Shown: one piece after another, positions 38,825 to 47,938 of the stretch
How positions within the stretch are numbered: position 1 is the first letter of the stretch
How the letters are laid out: every line of letters starts with the position of its first letter
Program-made: the position numbers and the translations under genes
NCBI RefSeq assembly: GCF_003121295.1
Contig: NZ_PHNC01000035.1
Coordinates: 124,001-188,000 of the forward strand
Direction: 5' to 3'
Length of the DNA stretch: 64,000 nt
Source of the DNA: Streptomyces orinoci
GTDB taxonomy: Bacteria; Actinomycetota; Actinomycetes; Streptomycetales; Streptomycetaceae
Notes under the pieces: model-generated
What the model was told of the DNA's origin: nothing
The model's database searches: none
The model's input: only the letters and a program-made list of their open reading frames with translations

Positions 38825-40807
38825 CTACTTCCCCTGCTCCCTGGCGGCGGCGTCAATGGCGGCCAGCGACCGGCGCACCTGGTTGCGGTCCGTGGTGTAC
38901 CAGAAGTCCGGCATGGAGGCCCGCAGGAAGGAGCCGTAGCGGGCGGTGGCCAGCCGGGGGTCGAGCACCGCGACCACTCCGCGGTCACCGGTGGCCCGTA
39001 CCAGCCGGCCCGCCCCCTGGGCCATCAGCAGGGCGGCATGGGTGGCGGCCACGGCCATAAAGCCATTGCCGCCCCCTTGCTCCACGGCCCGCTGCCGGGC
39101 ACTCATCAGCGGGTCGTCCGGCCGCGGGAAGGGCACCCGGTCCATCACCACCAGCTGGCAGCTGGGGCCGGGCACATCCACCCCCTGCCACAGCGAGAGG
39201 GTGCCGAACAGGCAGGTCCTGGGGTCGGCGGCAAAGGTCTTGATCAGCTCGCCCAGGGTCTCCTCGCCCTGGAGCAGGATGGGCAGCTCCAGCCGCCCGC
39301 GCAGCTCCTCGGCGGCGGCCTGGGCCGCCCGCATCGAGGAGAACAGGCCGAGGGTACGGCCGCCGGCCGCCTCGATCAGCTCGGCCAGCTCATCCAGCAT
39401 GTCCGAGCGGCTGCCCTCCCGCCCGGGCTGGGAGAGGTGCCGGGCCACATAGAGGATGCCCTGCTTGCGGTAGTCGAAGGGCGAGCCCACATCCACGCCC
39501 TGCCACTCGGGCACATCCTCACCGGTCACGCCCTCGGGAGCCAGGCCCAGGGAGGCGGCCACCCCGTTGAAGTCCCCGCCCAGCTTGAGGGTGGCTGAGG
39601 TGAGGACCACCGAGCGCTCGGCGAACAGCTTCTCCCGCAGCAGCCCGGACACCGACAGCGGCGCCACCCGCAGCGAGGCACCGAAGCGGTCATGGCGCTC
39701 GTACCAGACCACGTCGTACTCCGAGCCCTCGACGATCCGCTCGGCCACCGCGTGCACATTCTCCACCGAGGCCAGGGCCTGCTTGCGGACCGCGTCCTCG
39801 TCCTGGACGGTCTTGTCCCGGGTGTTGCCAATGGCGGAGATCACCGTGCGGGCGGCGTCCCGCAGCATCATCAGCACCTGGGCGAGATCCTCCGGGAGCT
39901 CCTCCAGACGGCCGGGCAGGGCCAGCTCCATCACCCGCTCAAAGCCCTCGGCGGCGGTCTGCAGGGCGTCGGCCGCCTTCTCGTCCACCAGCTTGGCCGC
40001 CCGGCGCACCGCCCGGTTGACCTGGCCGGGGGTGAGCTCCCCAGTGGCCACACCGGTGACCCGGGAGACCAGCTCATGGGCCTCGTCCACGATCAGCACC
40101 TCATGGCCGGGCAGCACCGGGGCGCCCTCGATGGCATCGATGGCCAGCAGGGCGTGGTTGGTCACCACCACATCGGCGAGCTTGGCCCGCTCCCGGGCCG
40201 CCTCCGCGAAACACTCCGCCCCATAGGCGCACTTGGAGGCCGACAGGCACTCCCGGGAGGTGACCGAGACCTGGGACCAGGCCCGGTCGGAAACGCCGGG
40301 GGTGAGATCGTCCCGGTCACCGGTCCCGGTCTCGTCCGCCCAGTCCCGCAGGCGCAGCAGGTCCTGGCCGAGCTTGCTGCTGGGGGCGGCTGCCTCGAAG
40401 GCGTCGAAGAGGCCCTCCTCCTCGTCCTGCGGCACGCCCTCGTGCAGCCGGTGCAGACAGAGGTAGTTGGAGCGGCCCTTGAGCATGGCGAACTCCGGGC
40501 GGCGGCGCAGCAGCGGATGCAACGCCTCCACGGTGCGCGGCAGATCGCGCTCCACCAGCTGGCGCTGGAGCGCCAGGGTGGCGGTGGCCACCACCACGCG
40601 CTCGCCATGCGCCAGGGCGGGCACCAGATAGCCCAGCGACTTACCGGTGCCGGTGCCGGCCTGCACCAGCAGATGCGCATTGTTGTCGATCACTTCGGCG
40701 ACGGCCTCGGCCATGGCGGCCTGGCCTGGGCGCTCGGAGCCTCCGACGGCGGCGACGGCGGCCCGCAGCAGGTCGGTGAGCGAGGGCTTGGAGGAGGTGG
40801 CAGTCAT
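38825..40807 (-). CDS. dinG: DinG/XPD-family ATP-dependent DNA helicase
   Basis: 660 residues. Superfamily 2 helicase with motif I QAGTGTGKSLGYLVPAL, an iron-sulfur cysteine set (YLCLHRL, CLSASKCAYGAECF), DEAH-box VLIVDEAHELVSRV, and C-terminal motifs LWQGVDVPG and GAGRLVRATGDRG. The cysteine spacing suggests a [4Fe-4S] cluster as in DinG/XPD. It would unwind 5' to 3' during repair. ATG 40807. Its neighbour is lexA, but no SOS box was seen upstream. Confidence 0.88.
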   Translation of the reverse strand: MTATSSKPSLTDLLRAAVAAVGGSERPGQAAMAEAVAEVIDNNAHLLVQAGTGTGKSLGYLVPALAHGERVVVATATLALQRQLVERDLPRTVEALHPLLRRRPEFAMLKGRSNYLCLHRLHEGVPQDEEEGLFDAFEAAAPSSKLGQDLLRLRDWADETGTGDRDDLTPGVSDRAWSQVSVTSRECLSASKCAYGAECFAEAARERAKLADVVVTNHALLAIDAIEGAPVLPGHEVLIVDEAHELVSRVTGVATGELTPGQVNRAVRRAAKLVDEKAADALQTAAEGFERVMELALPGRLEELPEDLAQVLMMLRDAARTVISAIGNTRDKTVQDEDAVRKQALASVENVHAVAERIVEGSEYDVVWYERHDRFGASLRVAPLSVSGLLREKLFAERSVVLTSATLKLGGDFNGVAASLGLAPEGVTGEDVPEWQGVDVGSPFDYRKQGILYVARHLSQPGREGSRSDMLDELAELIEAAGGRTLGLFSSMRAAQAAAEELRGRLELPILLQGEETLGELIKTFAADPRTCLFGTLSLWQGVDVPGPSCQLVVMDRVPFPRPDDPLMSARQRAVEQGGGNGFMAVAATHAALLMAQGAGRLVRATGDRGVVAVLDPRLATARYGSFLRASMPDFWYTTDRNQVRRSLAAIDAAAREQGK

Positions 40808-40857: not shown

Positions 40858-41550
40858 TCACCGGCCTTGCAGCACACCGCGCAGCGCGCGTTCCCGCATC
40901 AGCAGTGCGAGCTGCCGACCGGACGGTGCGAGTTGCGTGCCGGACGGTGCCAGTTCGGCGGCCAGCCGGAATCCGGCGCCCAGATGGGCCGCGATGGCGG
41001 GGATATTGCGCAGATCGGGGTCGGCGATGACACGCCCGCAGTGCGGCCGGCGGTCCAGCACCAGATCGGCGACGGTACGCAGCAGCAGGGTGCCCAGGCC
41101 ATGGCCCCGGTCGGCGGTCCGGCCGATCAGCAGCCGGACCCCGGTGTCATGGGGAAGGGCGCGGTAGTGCCGGGCGATGAGGTCCAGATCGGCGCGGTAG
41201 ATCTCCCAGTAGCTCATCACCACCCCGCCCAGCACGCCCAGGCAGGGCACGCTGCGGCCGTCGGTGCGCCGCAGCTCGGCGAGGTGCGCGGCGGTGACGG
41301 TGCGCGGCCCGCCCAGTCCCCAGACAGCGGCCACCGCCGGATCGTTCATCCAGCGGGCGAGCAGCGCCAGGTCGCGTTCCTCCTGCACCGGCACCAGATG
41401 GAAGGGCCCGGCGGCGGTGGCCACCGGCCCCCAGCCGGGCAGGCCGTCCAGCAGGTCGGTGGTGCGCGGGGCGGGCGGGTCACCGGCGATGAACCGACGG
41501 GCCTCCCCGGTGAGCCGCAGATCGAGGGTGTCCTCGGAGTCGGCGCTCAT
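40858..41550 (-). CDS. IucB/RhbD-type siderophore N-acyltransferase-like protein (GNAT)
   Basis: 230 residues. GNAT fold of the siderophore-type branch: FHLVPVQEERDLALLARWMN, VMSYWEIYRADLDLIARHYR and acyl-CoA loop DRGHGLGTLLLR. In relatives this enzyme acylates an N-hydroxyl or amine before NIS assembly. The usual DxGxH segment reads HDTGVRLLIG here, with R in place of the His I remember as important; this needs an alignment. A short duplication, ELAPSGTQLAPSGRQ, occurs near the C-terminus. Its start overlaps the NIS synthetase stop by 4 bases. Confidence 0.78.
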   Translation of the reverse strand: MSADSEDTLDLRLTGEARRFIAGDPPAPRTTDLLDGLPGWGPVATAAGPFHLVPVQEERDLALLARWMNDPAVAAVWGLGGPRTVTAAHLAELRRTDGRSVPCLGVLGGVVMSYWEIYRADLDLIARHYRALPHDTGVRLLIGRTADRGHGLGTLLLRTVADLVLDRRPHCGRVIADPDLRNIPAIAAHLGAGFRLAAELAPSGTQLAPSGRQLALLMRERALRGVLQGR

Positions 41551-43274
41551 CCCGGGGCCGTGGCAAGGGGGTTGGTGATGGTGACCGGTCCGGTGAGCAG
41601 CCCGGCGCGGCAGCGCAGGGTGGGTGAGTCCAGCAGCATGCCGGGCAGGCTGGAGCGCGTCCCGGCGGGCGCCCCGGCGGCCTCCCGCAGAAAGCGGCGC
41701 AGGGCGGCCAGCAGAATGCGCTCATCGGCCAGGCGCTGGGCGCCCAGGGCGCCGATGAGTCCGAGCAGGTTGTCGATGCCCAGGGCGCAGGCGAACTCCT
41801 CGTCCGCCCGGTCGTCGGCGACGGTGGCCGGGCCCGGCGGGTGCAGCCGCTCGCGCAGCCGGTGGTGCAGGCTGCCCCGGTGGCGTCCGCCGGCCGGCCA
41901 GCCCTCGGCGTCCAGCAGCACCAGGGTGTGCTGCCGGTCGGCGCCCAGGACGATCCCGGCGGCACCGTCCAGCCAGAGCAACGGCCGTACCACCGCCTCC
42001 AGATAGCGCAGAAACCACTCGGCGGACACCGCCCCGGCGGGCCGGCCGGTGCGCCGCACCAGGCGGGCGACGATGGCGGCCAGCCGGGAGCAGAGCGCCG
42101 GGTGCCCGGCGGGCGTGGTGCGCCCTGGCCAGGGGCGGGGTGCCAGCAGCCCGGCCAGACAGACGGCGTCGGCGTCCGGGGCGAAGGGGTGGTGCCGGAT
42201 GCCCAGCCCCAGGCCGGGCACCGGGACGCCGTCCGGGGCGTTGACGCCCAGCCAGGCCGGGTCGCGGATCACATCGAAGCCCGGACCACAGGCGGCGTGC
42301 CAGCGTTGGGCGATCCCGCCGCGCAGCATCCGGTGCAACTCCACGCCGGATGCCAGAAGTTGGCGGTCGCTCTCGTTGAGCCGGAGCAGGGCGGGCGCTC
42401 CGCTGCGGTAGACGGTGCGCGGGGCTGTGGTGGCGTACCAGGGCTGGCCATGGGCGCCCAGGTCATGGAGCAGTCCGGCCTCCAGCAGCCGGACGACGGC
42501 CGGCTCGCGGTGCAGCGCCGCCAGGCGCGCGGGATGTACGGGCAGCGGCACGCTGTCCGCCGGGAGCCCGAGGGCGGGCGGGGCCAGCCGGGCGGTCAGT
42601 ACGGCCGCGCCGACGATCCGGCCGCGTTCGGTCCAGGCGGAGTCGGCGGCCAGCAGGGAGCGGTGGACGCCCAGCCAGTGCAGCCGGAAGGGCTCGGCCG
42701 ACTCCGGGGGATGACCTTCGGTCTCCCCCAACGCCGCGCCCGGCAGCGCCTGTTCGCCGTGCAGGAAGTACTCCCCGTCCTCCGGTCCGGGATCCAGCCG
42801 CCGCTGCCGCAGGAAGGCCGTGGTGCGGCGGACCAATTCCGCAATGCGCAGGGTGAGTTCGGCGCCGTGACCGGCCGGGGCGCGGCCGGAGTGCACCGCC
42901 TCCCGGCCGAGCAGGGCGGCCAGGGTGACGGCGTCCAGCGCGGGGGCATCCGCCGGTCCGTCCAGCAGACCGGGCGGACCGAAGCGGTGGCTTCCGGTAA
43001 CGGACCAGTAGGGGACGGGCACATGAAGCACCCGGCCGTCGGCGCTGAGCGGGATGCGCAGACAACTGCCGCCGGGGCGCGCGACATTGGTCTCCCGCAC
43101 CCAGCAGCGCAGCAGCCGCTCCAGCACGGTGGCGTCCGCGGCGCGGGCCGGGTCGGGGTGGTCCAGGGGGTCGGCCGGCGGGCGCGGCCCGGGGAACCCG
43201 GCCTGCCGGGCGACGGCCGCCAGGGCGCCGGGCGCCTTCATGTGGTCCGGTTCATGAGCTGCAACGGCGGACAC
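41547..43274 (-). CDS. IucA/IucC-family NIS siderophore synthetase, apparently degenerate
   Basis: 575 residues, middle gene of the operon. Strong family segments: LHWLGVHRSLLAADSAWTER, FDVIRDPAWLGVNAPDGVPV, VSAEWFLRYLEAVVRPLLWL, LGIDNLLGLIGALGAQRLAD. However, the ATP/substrate motifs appear lost: the HPxHPxxK element after GEQAL is missing (an EGHP stub runs straight into AEPFRLHW); KLSLxxRITNxR is shortened to LLRLNESDRQ; EAHxQNTLV reads GADRQHTLV; RDNQGYY reads RGSLHHR. These comparisons are from memory of the family. Activity is therefore doubtful. GTG 43274 is chosen (5 bases after the previous stop); ATG 43241 is an alternative. Confidence 0.75.
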   Translation of the reverse strand: MSAVAAHEPDHMKAPGALAAVARQAGFPGPRPPADPLDHPDPARAADATVLERLLRCWVRETNVARPGGSCLRIPLSADGRVLHVPVPYWSVTGSHRFGPPGLLDGPADAPALDAVTLAALLGREAVHSGRAPAGHGAELTLRIAELVRRTTAFLRQRRLDPGPEDGEYFLHGEQALPGAALGETEGHPPESAEPFRLHWLGVHRSLLAADSAWTERGRIVGAAVLTARLAPPALGLPADSVPLPVHPARLAALHREPAVVRLLEAGLLHDLGAHGQPWYATTAPRTVYRSGAPALLRLNESDRQLLASGVELHRMLRGGIAQRWHAACGPGFDVIRDPAWLGVNAPDGVPVPGLGLGIRHHPFAPDADAVCLAGLLAPRPWPGRTTPAGHPALCSRLAAIVARLVRRTGRPAGAVSAEWFLRYLEAVVRPLLWLDGAAGIVLGADRQHTLVLLDAEGWPAGGRHRGSLHHRLRERLHPPGPATVADDRADEEFACALGIDNLLGLIGALGAQRLADERILLAALRRFLREAAGAPAGTRSSLPGMLLDSPTLRCRAGLLTGPVTITNPLATAPG

Positions 43275-43278
43275 CCGG

Positions 43279-44838
43279 TCAGGCCGGGAATGCCACGCCT
43301 TCCTCCTTGGGCTGGCTGGGGGCGGGGTGGGGCTCGCGGGGCGCGGGCAGCGGTTCACCGGGGAAGGGCTGGGGCTCACCGGGGGCGGGCTGGCCCTCGC
43401 CAGGCGCAGGTTGAGACTCACCGGGGACGGACCGGCGCTTGCCGGAGACGAGCCGGGACCCGCCGGAGACGGACTGGACCTCGCCAGGCGCAGGTTGAGA
43501 CTCGCCGGGGACGGACCGGCGCTTGCCGGAGACGGGCTGGGGCTCGGCAGGGACGGGCTGGCGCTCGCCGGGGACAGGCTGAGGCTCGCTGAAAACGGGC
43601 CGGGACCCACCCGAGGCGGACTCGGACTCGCCGGAGACGAGCCGGGCCTCACCAGGGACAGACCGGGACCCGCCGGAGACGGACGAGGGCTCACCGGGGG
43701 CGGCCCGGGCCTCACCCGAAACCGACCGGTCCTCATCCGAGACCGACCGGTCCTCACCCGAAACCGACCGGCGCTCGCCGAAAGCCGGGCCGTGGCGGGC
43801 AGGCCGGGAGATCTCGGCCAGCGCGTCGGCCAGCCTGGCGAGTACCGCCTCGGCCTGCTCGTCCGTGATGGTGAGCGGGGGCAGCAGGTGGACCAGCGGG
43901 AAGGGCCGGGTGCCGATCCCGACCATCAGGCCCCGGCGCAGACACTCCTGGCGCAGGGCCTCGGCATGGTCGAGCAGCTCGATCTCCAGCATCAGGCCGC
44001 GCCCCCGCACTCCCCCGACGCACCGGTGTTCCAGCGCCAGGCGGCGCAGCCGGCTGAGCATCCGGCCGCCCAGCACCCGGGCCCGCTCGGCCAGTTGCCG
44101 CTCCCGGACATAGCGCAGGGTGGCCGCGCCCGCCGCAAGCGCCAGCTGGTTGCCCCGGAAGGTGCTGCCCTCGGCGGGCGGCGGGCCCAGATCCTCCCGG
44201 TGCACCACCGCCGCCAGCGGCAGCCCGCCGCCGACGGCTCCCGAGAGCACCATCACATCGGGCACCACCTGGCTGTGCTCCACCGCCCAGAACGCCCCCG
44301 TCCGCCCCACTCCGGTGCGGCTCTCGTCCACCACAAAGGGGACGGAATGCGCGGCAGCGGTGTCCCGCATCCGGCGCAGCCGGTCGTCGGAGGAGACGGT
44401 GGCCGGGGAGACCAGGCAGCCGTCCCGGCCGGTCGCGGCCCGTACCAGCTCCAGGGCGGCGGTGACCGCCTCCCCGTCGCCCGGGCCGCAGAACCTGATC
44501 CGGGCGCTTTCCGCCAGCCCACCCGGCAGGGTGCGCAGCAGCTCGCCGGTGAAGGCGCGCTCCGCGGGGGTGGCCAGGCCCGGCACATACAGCGGGGCCT
44601 GGCCGTCGAGCACGGAGCGGACGGCCTCCAGCACCACCGGGTGGTTATGGCCGAGCACCAGCGCCCCGGCGCCGGGGAAGCAGTCCAGATAGCGGCGGCC
44701 GTCGGCGCCCTCCACGATCAGGCCCCGGGCCCGCACCGGCACGATCGGCAGCGGACAGGCGGGAGCGGCGGACTGCGCCGCGCGGGCCGCTGACGCCGCG
44801 TCGGGCAGCGCCGGCGGCGGTGACTGGGTCAAGCCCAC
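43279..44838 (-). CDS. Class III aminotransferase-like protein without catalytic lysine, with heptapeptide-repeat tail
   Basis: 519 residues, first gene of the siderophore operon. The N-terminal part matches diaminobutyrate-2-oxoglutarate aminotransferases (PLPIVPVRARGLIVEGADGR, LGHNHPVVLEAV), as do DESRTGVGRTGAFWAVEH, FRGNQLALAAGAATL and LLPPLTITDEQAEAVL. Two things are wrong for an active enzyme. The PLP-lysine segment reads MVLSGAVGGGLPLA, with glycine where SKAxGGG is expected. About 80 residues between ATGRDGCLV and the DE motif (the YHGxT and EPVQGEGG segments) are missing. Residues 356-509 are 22 heptapeptide repeats. AAGGAGG upstream supports GTG 44838. Confidence 0.75.
   Translation of the reverse strand: MGLTQSPPPALPDAASAARAAQSAAPACPLPIVPVRARGLIVEGADGRRYLDCFPGAGALVLGHNHPVVLEAVRSVLDGQAPLYVPGLATPAERAFTGELLRTLPGGLAESARIRFCGPGDGEAVTAALELVRAATGRDGCLVSPATVSSDDRLRRMRDTAAAHSVPFVVDESRTGVGRTGAFWAVEHSQVVPDVMVLSGAVGGGLPLAAVVHREDLGPPPAEGSTFRGNQLALAAGAATLRYVRERQLAERARVLGGRMLSRLRRLALEHRCVGGVRGRGLMLEIELLDHAEALRQECLRRGLMVGIGTRPFPLVHLLPPLTITDEQAEAVLARLADALAEISRPARHGPAFGERRSVSGEDRSVSDEDRSVSGEARAAPGEPSSVSGGSRSVPGEARLVSGESESASGGSRPVFSEPQPVPGERQPVPAEPQPVSGKRRSVPGESQPAPGEVQSVSGGSRLVSGKRRSVPGESQPAPGEGQPAPGEPQPFPGEPLPAPREPHPAPSQPKEEGVAFPA
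43312..43773 (-). repeat. 22 tandem 21-bp repeats encoding heptapeptides
   Basis: In-frame coding repeats at the end of the aminotransferase-like gene. Every unit is exactly 7 codons; typical units are RRSVSGE, DRSVSGE, SQPAPGE, PQPVPGE. Pairs such as RRSVPGE-SQPAPGE recur 84 bases apart, so unequal exchange has spread blocks of units. The strand-opposite frame also stays open. The product would be a Pro/Ser/Glu-rich disordered tail. Confidence 0.9.
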
Positions 44839-45046
44839 GACTACGGTCCCTCCTTGTGCGCTGAACGCCGACCGTCCCCCGTACGTACCAACGACGCCGG
44901 ATGCCCCGGAACACGGGCGAGTGCAAGATCCTTCGACCGGGAACCGGGGCCGGGGCCCGCACCGTCCTCCCCGGCACCGGCGTTAGGGTGGCCGTGCCCC
45001 ATCGCCGGGGCGGTGCATGACAACCTAGATCGGGGGATTTCACTCC

Positions 45047-46279
45047 ATGCCATCCCAACGCCCGCGCGCCACCCACCGATACGACGGTTGGCGGGCGCTG
45101 CGTGCCCATGGCTCGCGCACTCTGGCCGCCGCCGCGGTGGCCACCGCGCTGGCGCTGTCGGCCACCGCCTGCGGGCCGTCGGACGACAAGGCCGCCGGCA
45201 ACGACAAGGCCAGCGCTTCCAGCCAGCAGAGCGACAACGTCCTTCAGCTGCCCAAGGGTTTCAGCCTCAAGGACATCGAGAAGTGGAAGAACGGCGACTG
45301 GAAGAACTGGGACCGGGACCGCTGGCTGCGTGAGGCCCGCGACTTCATCAACCCCATCATCAAGGGGCATTGGAAGCCGGACACCATGAAGGACGCCCAG
45401 TCCGACGACAAGAAGCTCGCCGACGCACCGGGCGCAGCTCCCGGCTCCGGCCAGGGCGACCAGGGGGTGACCGACCCGGTGCCGCGCCCGGTGCCGGCCC
45501 AGGCCGTCAAACTCCCCTACCACCAGAGCGTTCCGCCCGTGGGCAAGGTGTTCTTCGACGCCCCGCAGGGCCATATGGTCTGCTCCGGTACGGTCGTCAA
45601 GGACCCGGCACACCCGGGCAAGTCCAACCTGGTGTGGACCGCCGGGCACTGTGTGCACGCGGGCAAGAAGGGCGGCTGGTACCGCAATATCGCCTTTGTC
45701 CCGTCCTACAACGACAAGGGCCTGCCCAGCTCGCGGGTGAACACCGCGCCGGTGCAGGATGTGGCCCCGCACGGTGTGTGGTGGGCCAACTGGGCCCAGA
45801 CCTCCACCCAGTGGATCACCCAGGGCGCCGAGACGGGCGGCCAGGGCGCGCCCTACGACTTCTCCGTGCTGCATGTGGCGCAGGAGAACGGCAGCGGCAA
45901 GTCGCTGGAGGAGACCGTGGGCAGCGCGCTGACCGTGGACTTCAACGCCCCCCAGGTCAAGTCCATCAATTCCATGGGTGCCTGGGGCTATCCGGCCGCG
46001 CCGCCCTTCGACGGGCAGAAGATGTACGACTGCATCGACCGGCCGGGCCGCCTGTCGCTGGACCCCGCCCAGCCGACCATGTACCGCATCGGCTGCACCA
46101 TGACCGGCGGTTCCTCGGGCGGCGGCTGGTTCGCCAAGGGGCCGGACGGCAGGCCGGAGCTGGTGTCCAACACCTCCATCGGCCCCTCCGACAGCCGTTG
46201 GCTGGCGGGACCGCATCTGGGCCCGGAGGCCAAGGGCGTCTATGACGCCATCAGCCAGAAGTTCGCCAGCAAGGGCTGA
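45047..46279 (+). CDS. Secreted trypsin-like serine protease, probable lipoprotein
   Basis: 410 residues. Export signal with lipobox-like LALSATAC (cysteine near residue 42), so likely membrane-anchored outside the cell. A charged, Lys/Trp-rich stem (residues 65-110) precedes an S1-type protease domain: catalytic H in VWTAGHCVHAG, D in GAPYDFSVLHV, S in TMTGGSSGGGWF. ATG 45047 has GGGGGA upstream. Divergent from the siderophore operon. Substrate unknown. Confidence 0.85.
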   Translation: MPSQRPRATHRYDGWRALRAHGSRTLAAAAVATALALSATACGPSDDKAAGNDKASASSQQSDNVLQLPKGFSLKDIEKWKNGDWKNWDRDRWLREARDFINPIIKGHWKPDTMKDAQSDDKKLADAPGAAPGSGQGDQGVTDPVPRPVPAQAVKLPYHQSVPPVGKVFFDAPQGHMVCSGTVVKDPAHPGKSNLVWTAGHCVHAGKKGGWYRNIAFVPSYNDKGLPSSRVNTAPVQDVAPHGVWWANWAQTSTQWITQGAETGGQGAPYDFSVLHVAQENGSGKSLEETVGSALTVDFNAPQVKSINSMGAWGYPAAPPFDGQKMYDCIDRPGRLSLDPAQPTMYRIGCTMTGGSSGGGWFAKGPDGRPELVSNTSIGPSDSRWLAGPHLGPEAKGVYDAISQKFASKG

Positions 46280-46435: not shown

Positions 46436-47938
46436 TCAGGCTCGCGCGGCAGGCGCGAAACGCCGCAGATCCGCGGCGAGTTCCTCGTGCACCCGTGCCT
46501 TGACCAGGGTGCCCTCCGCGGTGTGCTCCTCGGAGATCACCTCACCGTCGGCGTGGATGCGGGCCACCAGCGAACCCTGGGTGTAGGGCAGCAGCGCCTC
46601 GATTTCCACGGCGGGGCGCGGCAGTTCGGCGTCGATCAGCGCCAGCAGCTCGTCGATCCCCTGGCCGGTACGGGCGGAGACCGCGATGGCGCGCCGCTCG
46701 ATGCGCAGCAGCCGCTGGAGCATCAGCGGATCGGCCGCGTCGGCCTTGTTGATCACCACGATCTCCGGTACGTCCAGCGCGCCAACGTCGCGGATCACCT
46801 CGCGGACCGCCGCCAGCTGCTCCTCCGGCGCCGGGTGCGAGCCGTCCACCACATGCAGGATCAGGTCGGAGTCACCGACCTCCTCCATGGTGGAGCGGAA
46901 GGCCTCCACCAGGTGGTGCGGCAGGTGGCGGACAAAGCCGACGGTGTCGGCCAGGGTGTAGAGCCGCCCGCTGGGCGTCTCGGCCCGGCGCACGGTCGGG
47001 TCCAGGGTGGCGAACAGGGCGTTCTCCACCAGCACCCCGGCCCCGGTGAGCCGGTTGAGCAGGGAGGACTTCCCGGCGTTGGTGTAGCCGGCGATGGCCA
47101 CCGAGGGGACCTTGTTGCGGCGCCGCTCCTGGCGCTTGATGTCCCGGCCGGTCTTCATCTCCGCGATCTCCCGGCGCAGCTTGGCCATCTTCTCGCGGAT
47201 CCGGCGCCGGTCCGTCTCGATCTTGGTCTCACCGGGGCCACGGGTGGCCATGCCGCCGCCGGAGGATCCGGAGCCGCCACCGCCCATCTGGCGGGACAGC
47301 GACTGGCCCCAGCCGCGCAGCCTGGGCAGCATGTACTGCATCTGGGCCAGGGAGACCTGGGCCTTGCCCTCCCGGGACTTGGCGTGCTGGGCGAAGATGT
47401 CCAGGATCAGGGCGGTCCGGTCCACCACCTTGACCTTGACGACATCCTCCAGGTGGATCAGCTGGCCGGGGCTGAGCTCACCGTCGCAGACCACGGTGTC
47501 GGCGCCGGACTCCAGGACGATGTCCCGCAGCTCCTGGGCCTTGCCCGAGCCGATATAGGTGGCCGGGTCCGGCTTGTCGCGGCGCTGGATGACGCCGTCC
47601 AGCACCATGGCGCCCGCGGTCTCGGCGAGCGCGGCCAGCTCCGCCAGGGAGTTCTCGGCGTCCTGCACCGTGCCGGAGGTCCAGACGCCGACCAGCACCA
47701 CGCGCTCCAGGCGCAGCTGGCGGTACTCGACCTCGGTGACGTCCTCCAGCTCGGTGGACAGGCCCGCCACCCGGCGCAGGGCGGCGCGCTCGTCACGGTC
47801 GTACTGGTCCCCGTCACGCTCCCCGTCGATCTCGTGGCTCCAGGCGACGTCCTCTTCCATCAGGGCGTCGGCCCGAAGGCTCTCCGGAAGGCTCTGCCGG
47901 CCCTGCCGGTCCTGGGGAAGGGAAGAAGTGGAGGTCAT
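46436..47938 (-). CDS. hflX: GTPase HflX
   Basis: Ribosome-associated GTPase of the Obg-HflX group that splits stalled or hibernating 70S ribosomes. 500 residues. N-terminal HflX domain ([33 protein letters not shown]), helical region with [15 protein letters not shown], then G domain: P-loop [14 protein letters not shown], switch [20 protein letters not shown] and NKAD. ATG 47938 has AAGGA upstream; the longer frame is antisense to the next gene's end. Confidence 0.95.

Follow-up and report, generated by a model that had tools for sequence, protein, structure and literature searches.

The locus considered here lies within a stretch of 64,000 nucleotides from Streptomyces orinoci, which is called the window and is numbered from its first letter. 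Its genes are arranged in the order HflX, trypsin-like peptidase (divergent), aminotransferase (AT), IucA/IucC, GNAT and DinG-type helicase. The AT gene (43279..44838, minus strand) is an uninterrupted open reading frame of 519 residues running from a GTG start at 44838 to 43279, and a ribosome-binding-site-like AAGGAGGG (44848..44855, minus strand), read directly, ends 9 nt 5' of the GTG. The second gene (41547..43241, minus strand) codes for a homologue of the IucA/IucC-family NIS synthetases, of 564 residues when counted from the chosen ATG, a putative start which lies 37 nt downstream of the AT stop. The third operon gene, for a GNAT acetyltransferase (PF13523; 40858..41550, minus strand), has a 4-nt overlap with the end of IucA/IucC. 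The flanking genes, which serve below as markers for the species tree, code for a helicase which we take to be DinG (38825..40807, minus strand; PF13307, PF00270), a trypsin-like peptidase (45047..46279, plus strand) recognized by eye from its TAGHC and GGSSGG motifs and lacking a Pfam match at 1e-3, and a HflX GTPase assigned by Pfam (46436..47938, minus strand).

The AT protein has a class-III aminotransferase fold (PF00202, 183.1 bits against a curated cut-off of 30.5) and resembles the diaminobutyrate-2-oxoglutarate aminotransferases (TIGR00709; EctB, 6rl5 and 9s1q), its nearest models, in descent, in predicted fold and in the Asp-Glu pair (D171-E172), but it lacks the lysine and the YHGMT and EPVQGEGG segments of that family, has a fold reduced by about 77 residues and reaches only 217.8 bits in TIGR00709, below the cut-off of 401.6; L013, the intact sister-clade orthologue from S. 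olivoverticillatus, attains 476.2 bits. In an active diaminobutyrate aminotransferase the Schiff-base lysine is expected within SKAxGG. Here codon 200 (44239..44241, minus strand) is GGA for glycine, as judged from the sequence and the orthologue alignment, and residues 198-205 read LSGAVGGG where most orthologues have LSKAIGGS. The lysines of the protein are confined to positions 439, 467 and 511, all in the repeat tail, and residues 1-438, which contain the fold, hold none. The sequence-only reading had reported the loss of the PLP lysine and of about 80 core residues from an intact frame with a ribosome site and a DE motif, and had named a lysine elsewhere in the pocket as the observation that would overturn it; the description holds, and such a lysine is not found in the fold, so that by the translated sequence a substitute for the Schiff-base lysine is absent. 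The distance from the FCxP motif to the DE motif is 51 residues, compared to 128 in intact sister-clade orthologues, which puts the loss at 77 core residues. The site of the deletion is marked by a remnant (residues 140-152, GCLVSPATVSSDD; 44383..44421, minus strand), and the following DESRTGVGRTG (44296..44328, minus strand) has kept the DE pair and, in the alignment, lost the VQ of the usual DEVQTG. The C-terminal tail (43309..43771, minus strand) consists of about 20 units of a degenerate 21-bp (7-codon) repeat, of which none was seen by eye in the four sister AT proteins introduced below. Its end is a K-E-rich stretch common to the sister proteins, which holds an AAGGAGG ahead of IucA/IucC. 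A match of the tail to a grass antifreeze beta-roll family (PF21300, 35.8 bits against 30) was set aside since it sits on the low-complexity repeats.

The neighbouring synthetase, which the sequence-only reading had not remarked upon, is degenerate as well. It still matches PF04183 (83 bits) and PF06276 (67.9 bits) and its frame is open, but GHPxHPxPKSREG is deleted, SVRT has become APRT, KLSLGLRITNSRR has become RLN--ESD and HQQN has become DRQH. The four motifs GHPxHPxPKSR, SVRT, KLSL and HQQN, which we take to be the active-site motifs of IucA/IucC, are all lost in the window only among 47 synthetase loci, the other 46 showing at most one motif altered by small changes (L024, L028, L039, L050). 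Of the features of an NIS siderophore operon, the synthetase gene is thus present in the window and its conserved motifs are lacking. We presume that SCO5799-SCO5801 of S. coelicolor, situated near LexA and including an AT and an IucA/IucC gene, represent the same locus. In the passages seen of the respective papers, SCO5799/SCO5800 are listed under siderophore biosynthesis (PMC6414726) and sco5799-sco5801 are described as a putative siderophore cluster (PMC7324645), which is likewise a small one and differs from the window operon in that AT and synthetase of the latter are both without conserved motifs. A search for an iron box in 550 nt 5' of the AT gene at 51 loci gave as best hit a site with mismatches at 7 of 19 positions, the same as in shuffled sequences; even intact loci of this 'siderophore' operon show no recognisable sign of control by iron.

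The fate of the fold was approached by AlphaFold2 modelling of residues 1-345 with 37 relatives, intact enzymes among them. The model (pLDDT 84.4, pTM 0.81) superimposes with EctB chain 6rl5_A over 315 of 345 residues (2.3 A, Z 31.9), and the Foldseek matches listed for it are class-III aminotransferases and related enzymes. The shortened chain can thus be drawn on the class-III fold, which the model may, however, have borrowed from the intact homologues. The persistence of this predicted fold, together with the invariance of the Asp-Glu pair and of residues in the GRTG region over the 38 aligned sequences, might be taken as a sign that the protein is still an enzyme which binds PLP or another ligand non-covalently and works by a mechanism that needs no lysine. 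However, YHG, EPVQGEGG, the VQ of DEVQTG and the GTD segment, all of which presumably line the PLP pocket, are gone or variable in the lysine-less clade, and we regard such an activity as hardly credible.

A first scan of genome contigs for relatives yielded 59 loci. Lysine loss combined with a short core is common to the AT proteins of S. caatingaensis (L009), Streptomyces sp. AV19 (L010) and Streptomyces sp. I05A-00742 (L012), and in genome G051 (L099/L137) the lysine is lost and an unrelated low-complexity filler replaces the central segment; an orthologue check, as proposed with the original observation, therefore finds the same lysine loss in four other species. None of the five proteins has a lysine anywhere in the aligned AT core. 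A sequencing artefact or strain-specific error is ruled out, as the four relatives were sequenced separately. Over 129 AT rows, the position of the PLP lysine is occupied by K in 122, G in 6 and E in 1; these rows stand for 109 distinct places (102 with K), 20 of the rows being repeats of a genome included twice, and they exclude the distant matches L063 and L067, the remnant L148, in which the region is missing, and scoring genomes without a retrieved locus. Thirteen of the longer AT stretches are without the HflX flank marker and probably represent a second locus. Outside the clade of the window, the lysine is lost in S. meridianus (L038, LSGTIGG) and in L143 of genome G092 (LAEATGG). Intermediate states occur as well: in L138, L139 and L140 the lysine is retained and the central segment gone, and in L036, L057, L064 and L141 the lysine is retained and changes are seen in the DE and YHG motifs. 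A DNA pattern for glycine in place of lysine hit 4 of 295 genomes, once in the AT gene (G051) and three times elsewhere, and missed the window itself because of its GGA codon; it was not used as a count.

In a species tree of 60 loci built from the flanking HflX, DinG and peptidase genes, the window, L009, L010, L012 and L137 form one clade (support 99/98), adjacent to the five-species group being a group in which six of eight members have intact motifs, the exceptions being L140 and L141, whose path length to the window is about the same as that of the clade members. The grouping of the five lysine-less species at high support points to a single loss on their stem; by the simplest account, L038 and L143 each lost the lysine independently. 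The central stretches of the window, L009, L010, L012 and L137 measure 51, 52, 52, 48 and 150 residues and have differing remnants; as far as the alignment can tell, the central segment is a part that eroded differently in each species after the loss of the lysine. The proposal of a very early stage of decay, one of three explanations put forward initially, does not survive these data, as by parsimony the loss is older than the split of the five species and as purifying selection is found on the youngest branches; the flanking-gene tree and the omega values of the youngest tips rule out very recent decay.

Selection was assessed with a home-made codon model (GY94 F3x4, optimisation of up to 60 iterations, all sites alike) on 292 codons of 17 taxa; gappy columns were excluded, and the omega values describe the retained parts only. 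The lysine-less crown has an omega of 0.117 against a background of 0.057; fixing the crown at omega = 1 costs 204 units of lnL, and equating it with the background costs 15. A tip that is older than its lysine loss covers a period in which the enzyme was still active, and the young tips of the clade are therefore the cleanest test. For these, omega is 0.114 (L009/L010) and 0.108 (L012/L137) with a background of 0.070; setting omega = 1 lowers lnL by 45 and 68, respectively. The same constraint costs 22 lnL on the L143 tip and, on the window tip, 34 for the AT and 59 for the IucA/IucC gene, the estimates for the window being unstable with an AT branch length near its bound. The stem omega, above 1, and the window-only omega were unstable and were not used as estimates. 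Pairwise NG86 omega values of the core range from 0.30 to 0.53 between members of the lysine-less clade; most of the other pairs run lie at 0.14-0.17, the exceptions being L058-L061 (0.51), L036-L064 (0.57, L064 being out of frame), window-L058 (0.28) and window-L038 (0.47). The N-terminal block, residues 28-80 (44599..44757, minus strand), has the smallest pairwise NG86 omega of three blocks in six of seven within-clade pairs (0.14-0.28). Hence the retained parts of the AT are under purifying selection, about half as strong as in intact genes. The dN/dS check suggested by the sequence-only reading thus has a double outcome: the retained parts are constrained (omega about 0.11 against 0.057-0.070 in the background), and the constraint is relaxed about twofold. 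Its notion of a pseudoenzyme, here one under selection, is backed by the codon-model tests on lysine-less branches; the repurposed scaffold that it also suggested is a candidate role.

Counts by codon position lead in the same direction. Differences at positions 1, 2 and 3 number 18, 24 and 53 between L009 and L010 and 42, 42 and 94 between L012 and L137. The ratio of second to third positions is 0.45 in both close pairs, and its minimum in neutral simulations (200 at each of six settings, with as much change as separates the closer pair, L009-L010) is at least 0.64. First positions are less telling, as at one setting some simulations fall below the 0.45 of L012-L137. With a high gap penalty, used because a low one introduces many gaps into intact pairs too, the two close pairs show six indels, each a multiple of 3 in length; with the low penalty, two of three gaps in L009-L010 are not multiples of 3, the three together making 15. 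More distant pairs within the clade have frame-breaking gaps in 2 of 4, 2 of 6, 2 of 6 and 2 of 8 cases, each set summing to a multiple of 3, and such compensating gaps occur in several intact pairs too. The frame preserved in close pairs and the 37 nt between the AT stop and the synthetase ATG would fit a translational leader, i.e. an open reading frame retained solely so that ribosomes can reinitiate at the IucA/IucC start. A leader of this kind would keep the frame, not the residues, yet second codon positions are constrained, and in L038 and L143 the lysine-less gene persists without IucA/IucC at the locus, which makes this explanation very unlikely.

The state of the AT gene is mirrored in its partner genes. 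These were compared at 49 loci having the flank marker, an AT and enough downstream sequence, after L017 and L058 (contig ends) and L142 had been set aside. Both the IucA/IucC and the GNAT gene are present in all 42 lysine-keeping loci, none of which misses a partner. In each of the seven lysine-less loci, which represent three independent events, a partner gene is absent or has degenerated. No GNAT match was found at the locus in the four sister species (L009, L010, L012, L137), and neither IucA/IucC nor GNAT is present in L038 and L143; the window has both partner genes, the synthetase being the degenerate one. Seen across the genus, the AT is dispensable and has repeatedly been lost or eroded. 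In a set of 121 genomes it is the operon member most often missing: 104 contain a match to the AT profile (E 1e-50) and 115 a match to the synthetase (E 1e-40), thresholds which mix this locus with a second AT locus whose synthetase is about 50% identical. A synthetase without an AT above threshold occurs in at least 13 of the 121 genomes, an AT without a synthetase in two (G028, on a fragment, and G092) and neither in four. The number 13 is a lower bound since G043, G044 and G089 seem to hold an AT at the second locus only. In these three genomes the second locus pairs its AT with a synthetase that shares about 50% identity with the one considered here, and the first locus seems to be without an AT. 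Thirteen AT-lacking stretches were inspected. Nine have the order peptidase - IucA/IucC - GNAT - DinG without an AT, L156 shows the same up to the contig end, and L149 and L152 are cut at the synthetase by the contig end with no AT visible, so that 12 of the 13 are without any AT (two cut by a contig end). In the remaining one, L148 (5918-6793), only N- and C-terminal parts of an AT are left, in one open frame with eroded motifs. The AT-free operon with peptidase - IucA/IucC - GNAT is seen at ten loci (L144-L147, L150, L151, L153-L156). In six of the 13 stretches, L145, L146, L147, L150, L153 and L155, a further IucA/IucC-like sequence, distant at 26-34% identity, separates GNAT from DinG. In the genome of the window, three diaminobutyrate-type AT paralogues (L002, L003, L004) are intact with respect to the DEVQTG and SKAL motifs, and two of them were scored, both exceeding the TIGR00709 cut-off. 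They could render the operon AT redundant.

These observations keep alive the main rival explanation, a slow dismantling, in which the AT would be a redundant gene of a dying operon, other diaminobutyrate-type ATs would supply the product, GC-rich codons would keep the frame open and constraint would lag behind. The failure to find an AT at the ten loci where IucA/IucC and GNAT stay and the upstream flank is unbroken, the L148 remnant, the degenerate synthetase of the window, the GNAT genes not found in the four sisters, the relaxed omega and the three paralogues (intact by motif, two above the family cut-off) all speak for it. So does the nature of the frame, which the sequence-only reading had noted as intact: it is indeed open, but in DNA with a GC3 of 0.93 this is cheap and lends weak support, the antisense frame of the AT core being stop-free too and another forward frame having a single stop in 308 codons. 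Open frames in high-GC genomes are no proof of function. Slow dismantling accounts better for the repeated losses and fails on the continuing constraint, as neutrality is rejected on the crown, on both pairs of young tips, on the window tip and on the L143 tip, and as the second-position counts deviate from the simulations and the indels, only six in number, are in frame. We give it a substantial chance, though one well short of even.

The reading we prefer, with modest confidence, is that of a dead class-III aminotransferase in an operon being dismantled, whose folded remainder is kept for a non-catalytic job. The protein derives from the diaminobutyrate-type AT of a conserved AT - IucA/IucC - GNAT operon. 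Comparison of the relatives indicates that the PLP lysine disappeared once, on the stem of the five-species Streptomyces clade, and with no lysine in the fold transamination should be impossible by established class-III chemistry. The central segment that cradles PLP shrank or turned to filler, differently per species. Purifying selection continued on the N-terminal segment, on what is left of the large domain and on the small domain at the C-terminus. Since the retained parts are still constrained after the loss of the lysine, a non-catalytic job is probable, which might consist in pairing with an intact AT paralogue or the synthetase; L002-L004 of the same genome and the synthetase are candidate partners. 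Meanwhile the old pathway would have been dismantled gene by gene. The dispensability of the AT, its erosion in several other lineages and the twofold relaxation of selection count against this reading. Lysine-less subunits of PLP fold are known from LCB1/SPTLC1 of serine palmitoyltransferase and from the prozymes of trypanosomes, dead relatives which are kept by selection and which bind and support an active partner. The window AT shares with them the loss of the lysine and purifying selection and differs in that its partner is only a candidate, that of LCB1 and the prozymes being known, and in that its core is truncated as well. A bolder version, which we hold to be unlikely, would have the AT of this operon become a lysine-less partner on three or more occasions within Streptomyces, by K to G in the window clade and in S. 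meridianus and by K to E in G092. Each change would have accompanied the loss of an enzyme from the surrounding pathway, the AT outliving both partner genes at the locus in two of three cases, and its retained halves would serve as a prozyme-like subunit of an intact diaminobutyrate paralogue encoded elsewhere in the genome.

In the literature considered, partly as titles and beginnings of abstracts, none was found on pseudoenzymes in siderophore biosynthesis or on the product of this operon; in PMC6522883 matching terms are confined to the reference list and give no lead, and the passages seen of PMC13136089, which tentatively report schizokinen from Streptomyces, give no tie to the window locus. 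The locus illustrates that genome mining can attach the label 'siderophore cluster' to operons in which the core enzymes are probably unable to function. It is rare to see the stages between enzyme and pseudoenzyme next to each other. At this locus a whole series is found at one fixed genomic address in one genus, from intact through VQ lost, central segment lost but lysine retained, lysine lost and truncated remnant to absent, and it permits a direct test of what selection preserves once catalysis is gone. Two further variations were seen. The AT of Streptomyces sp. GKU 895 (L064) appears by eye to be out of frame near its C-terminus, possibly by an assembly error in this draft genome, and the AT genes of L058, L054, L080, L036 and L057 carry low-complexity, species-specific inserts in the loop ahead of the CLRRGL motif.
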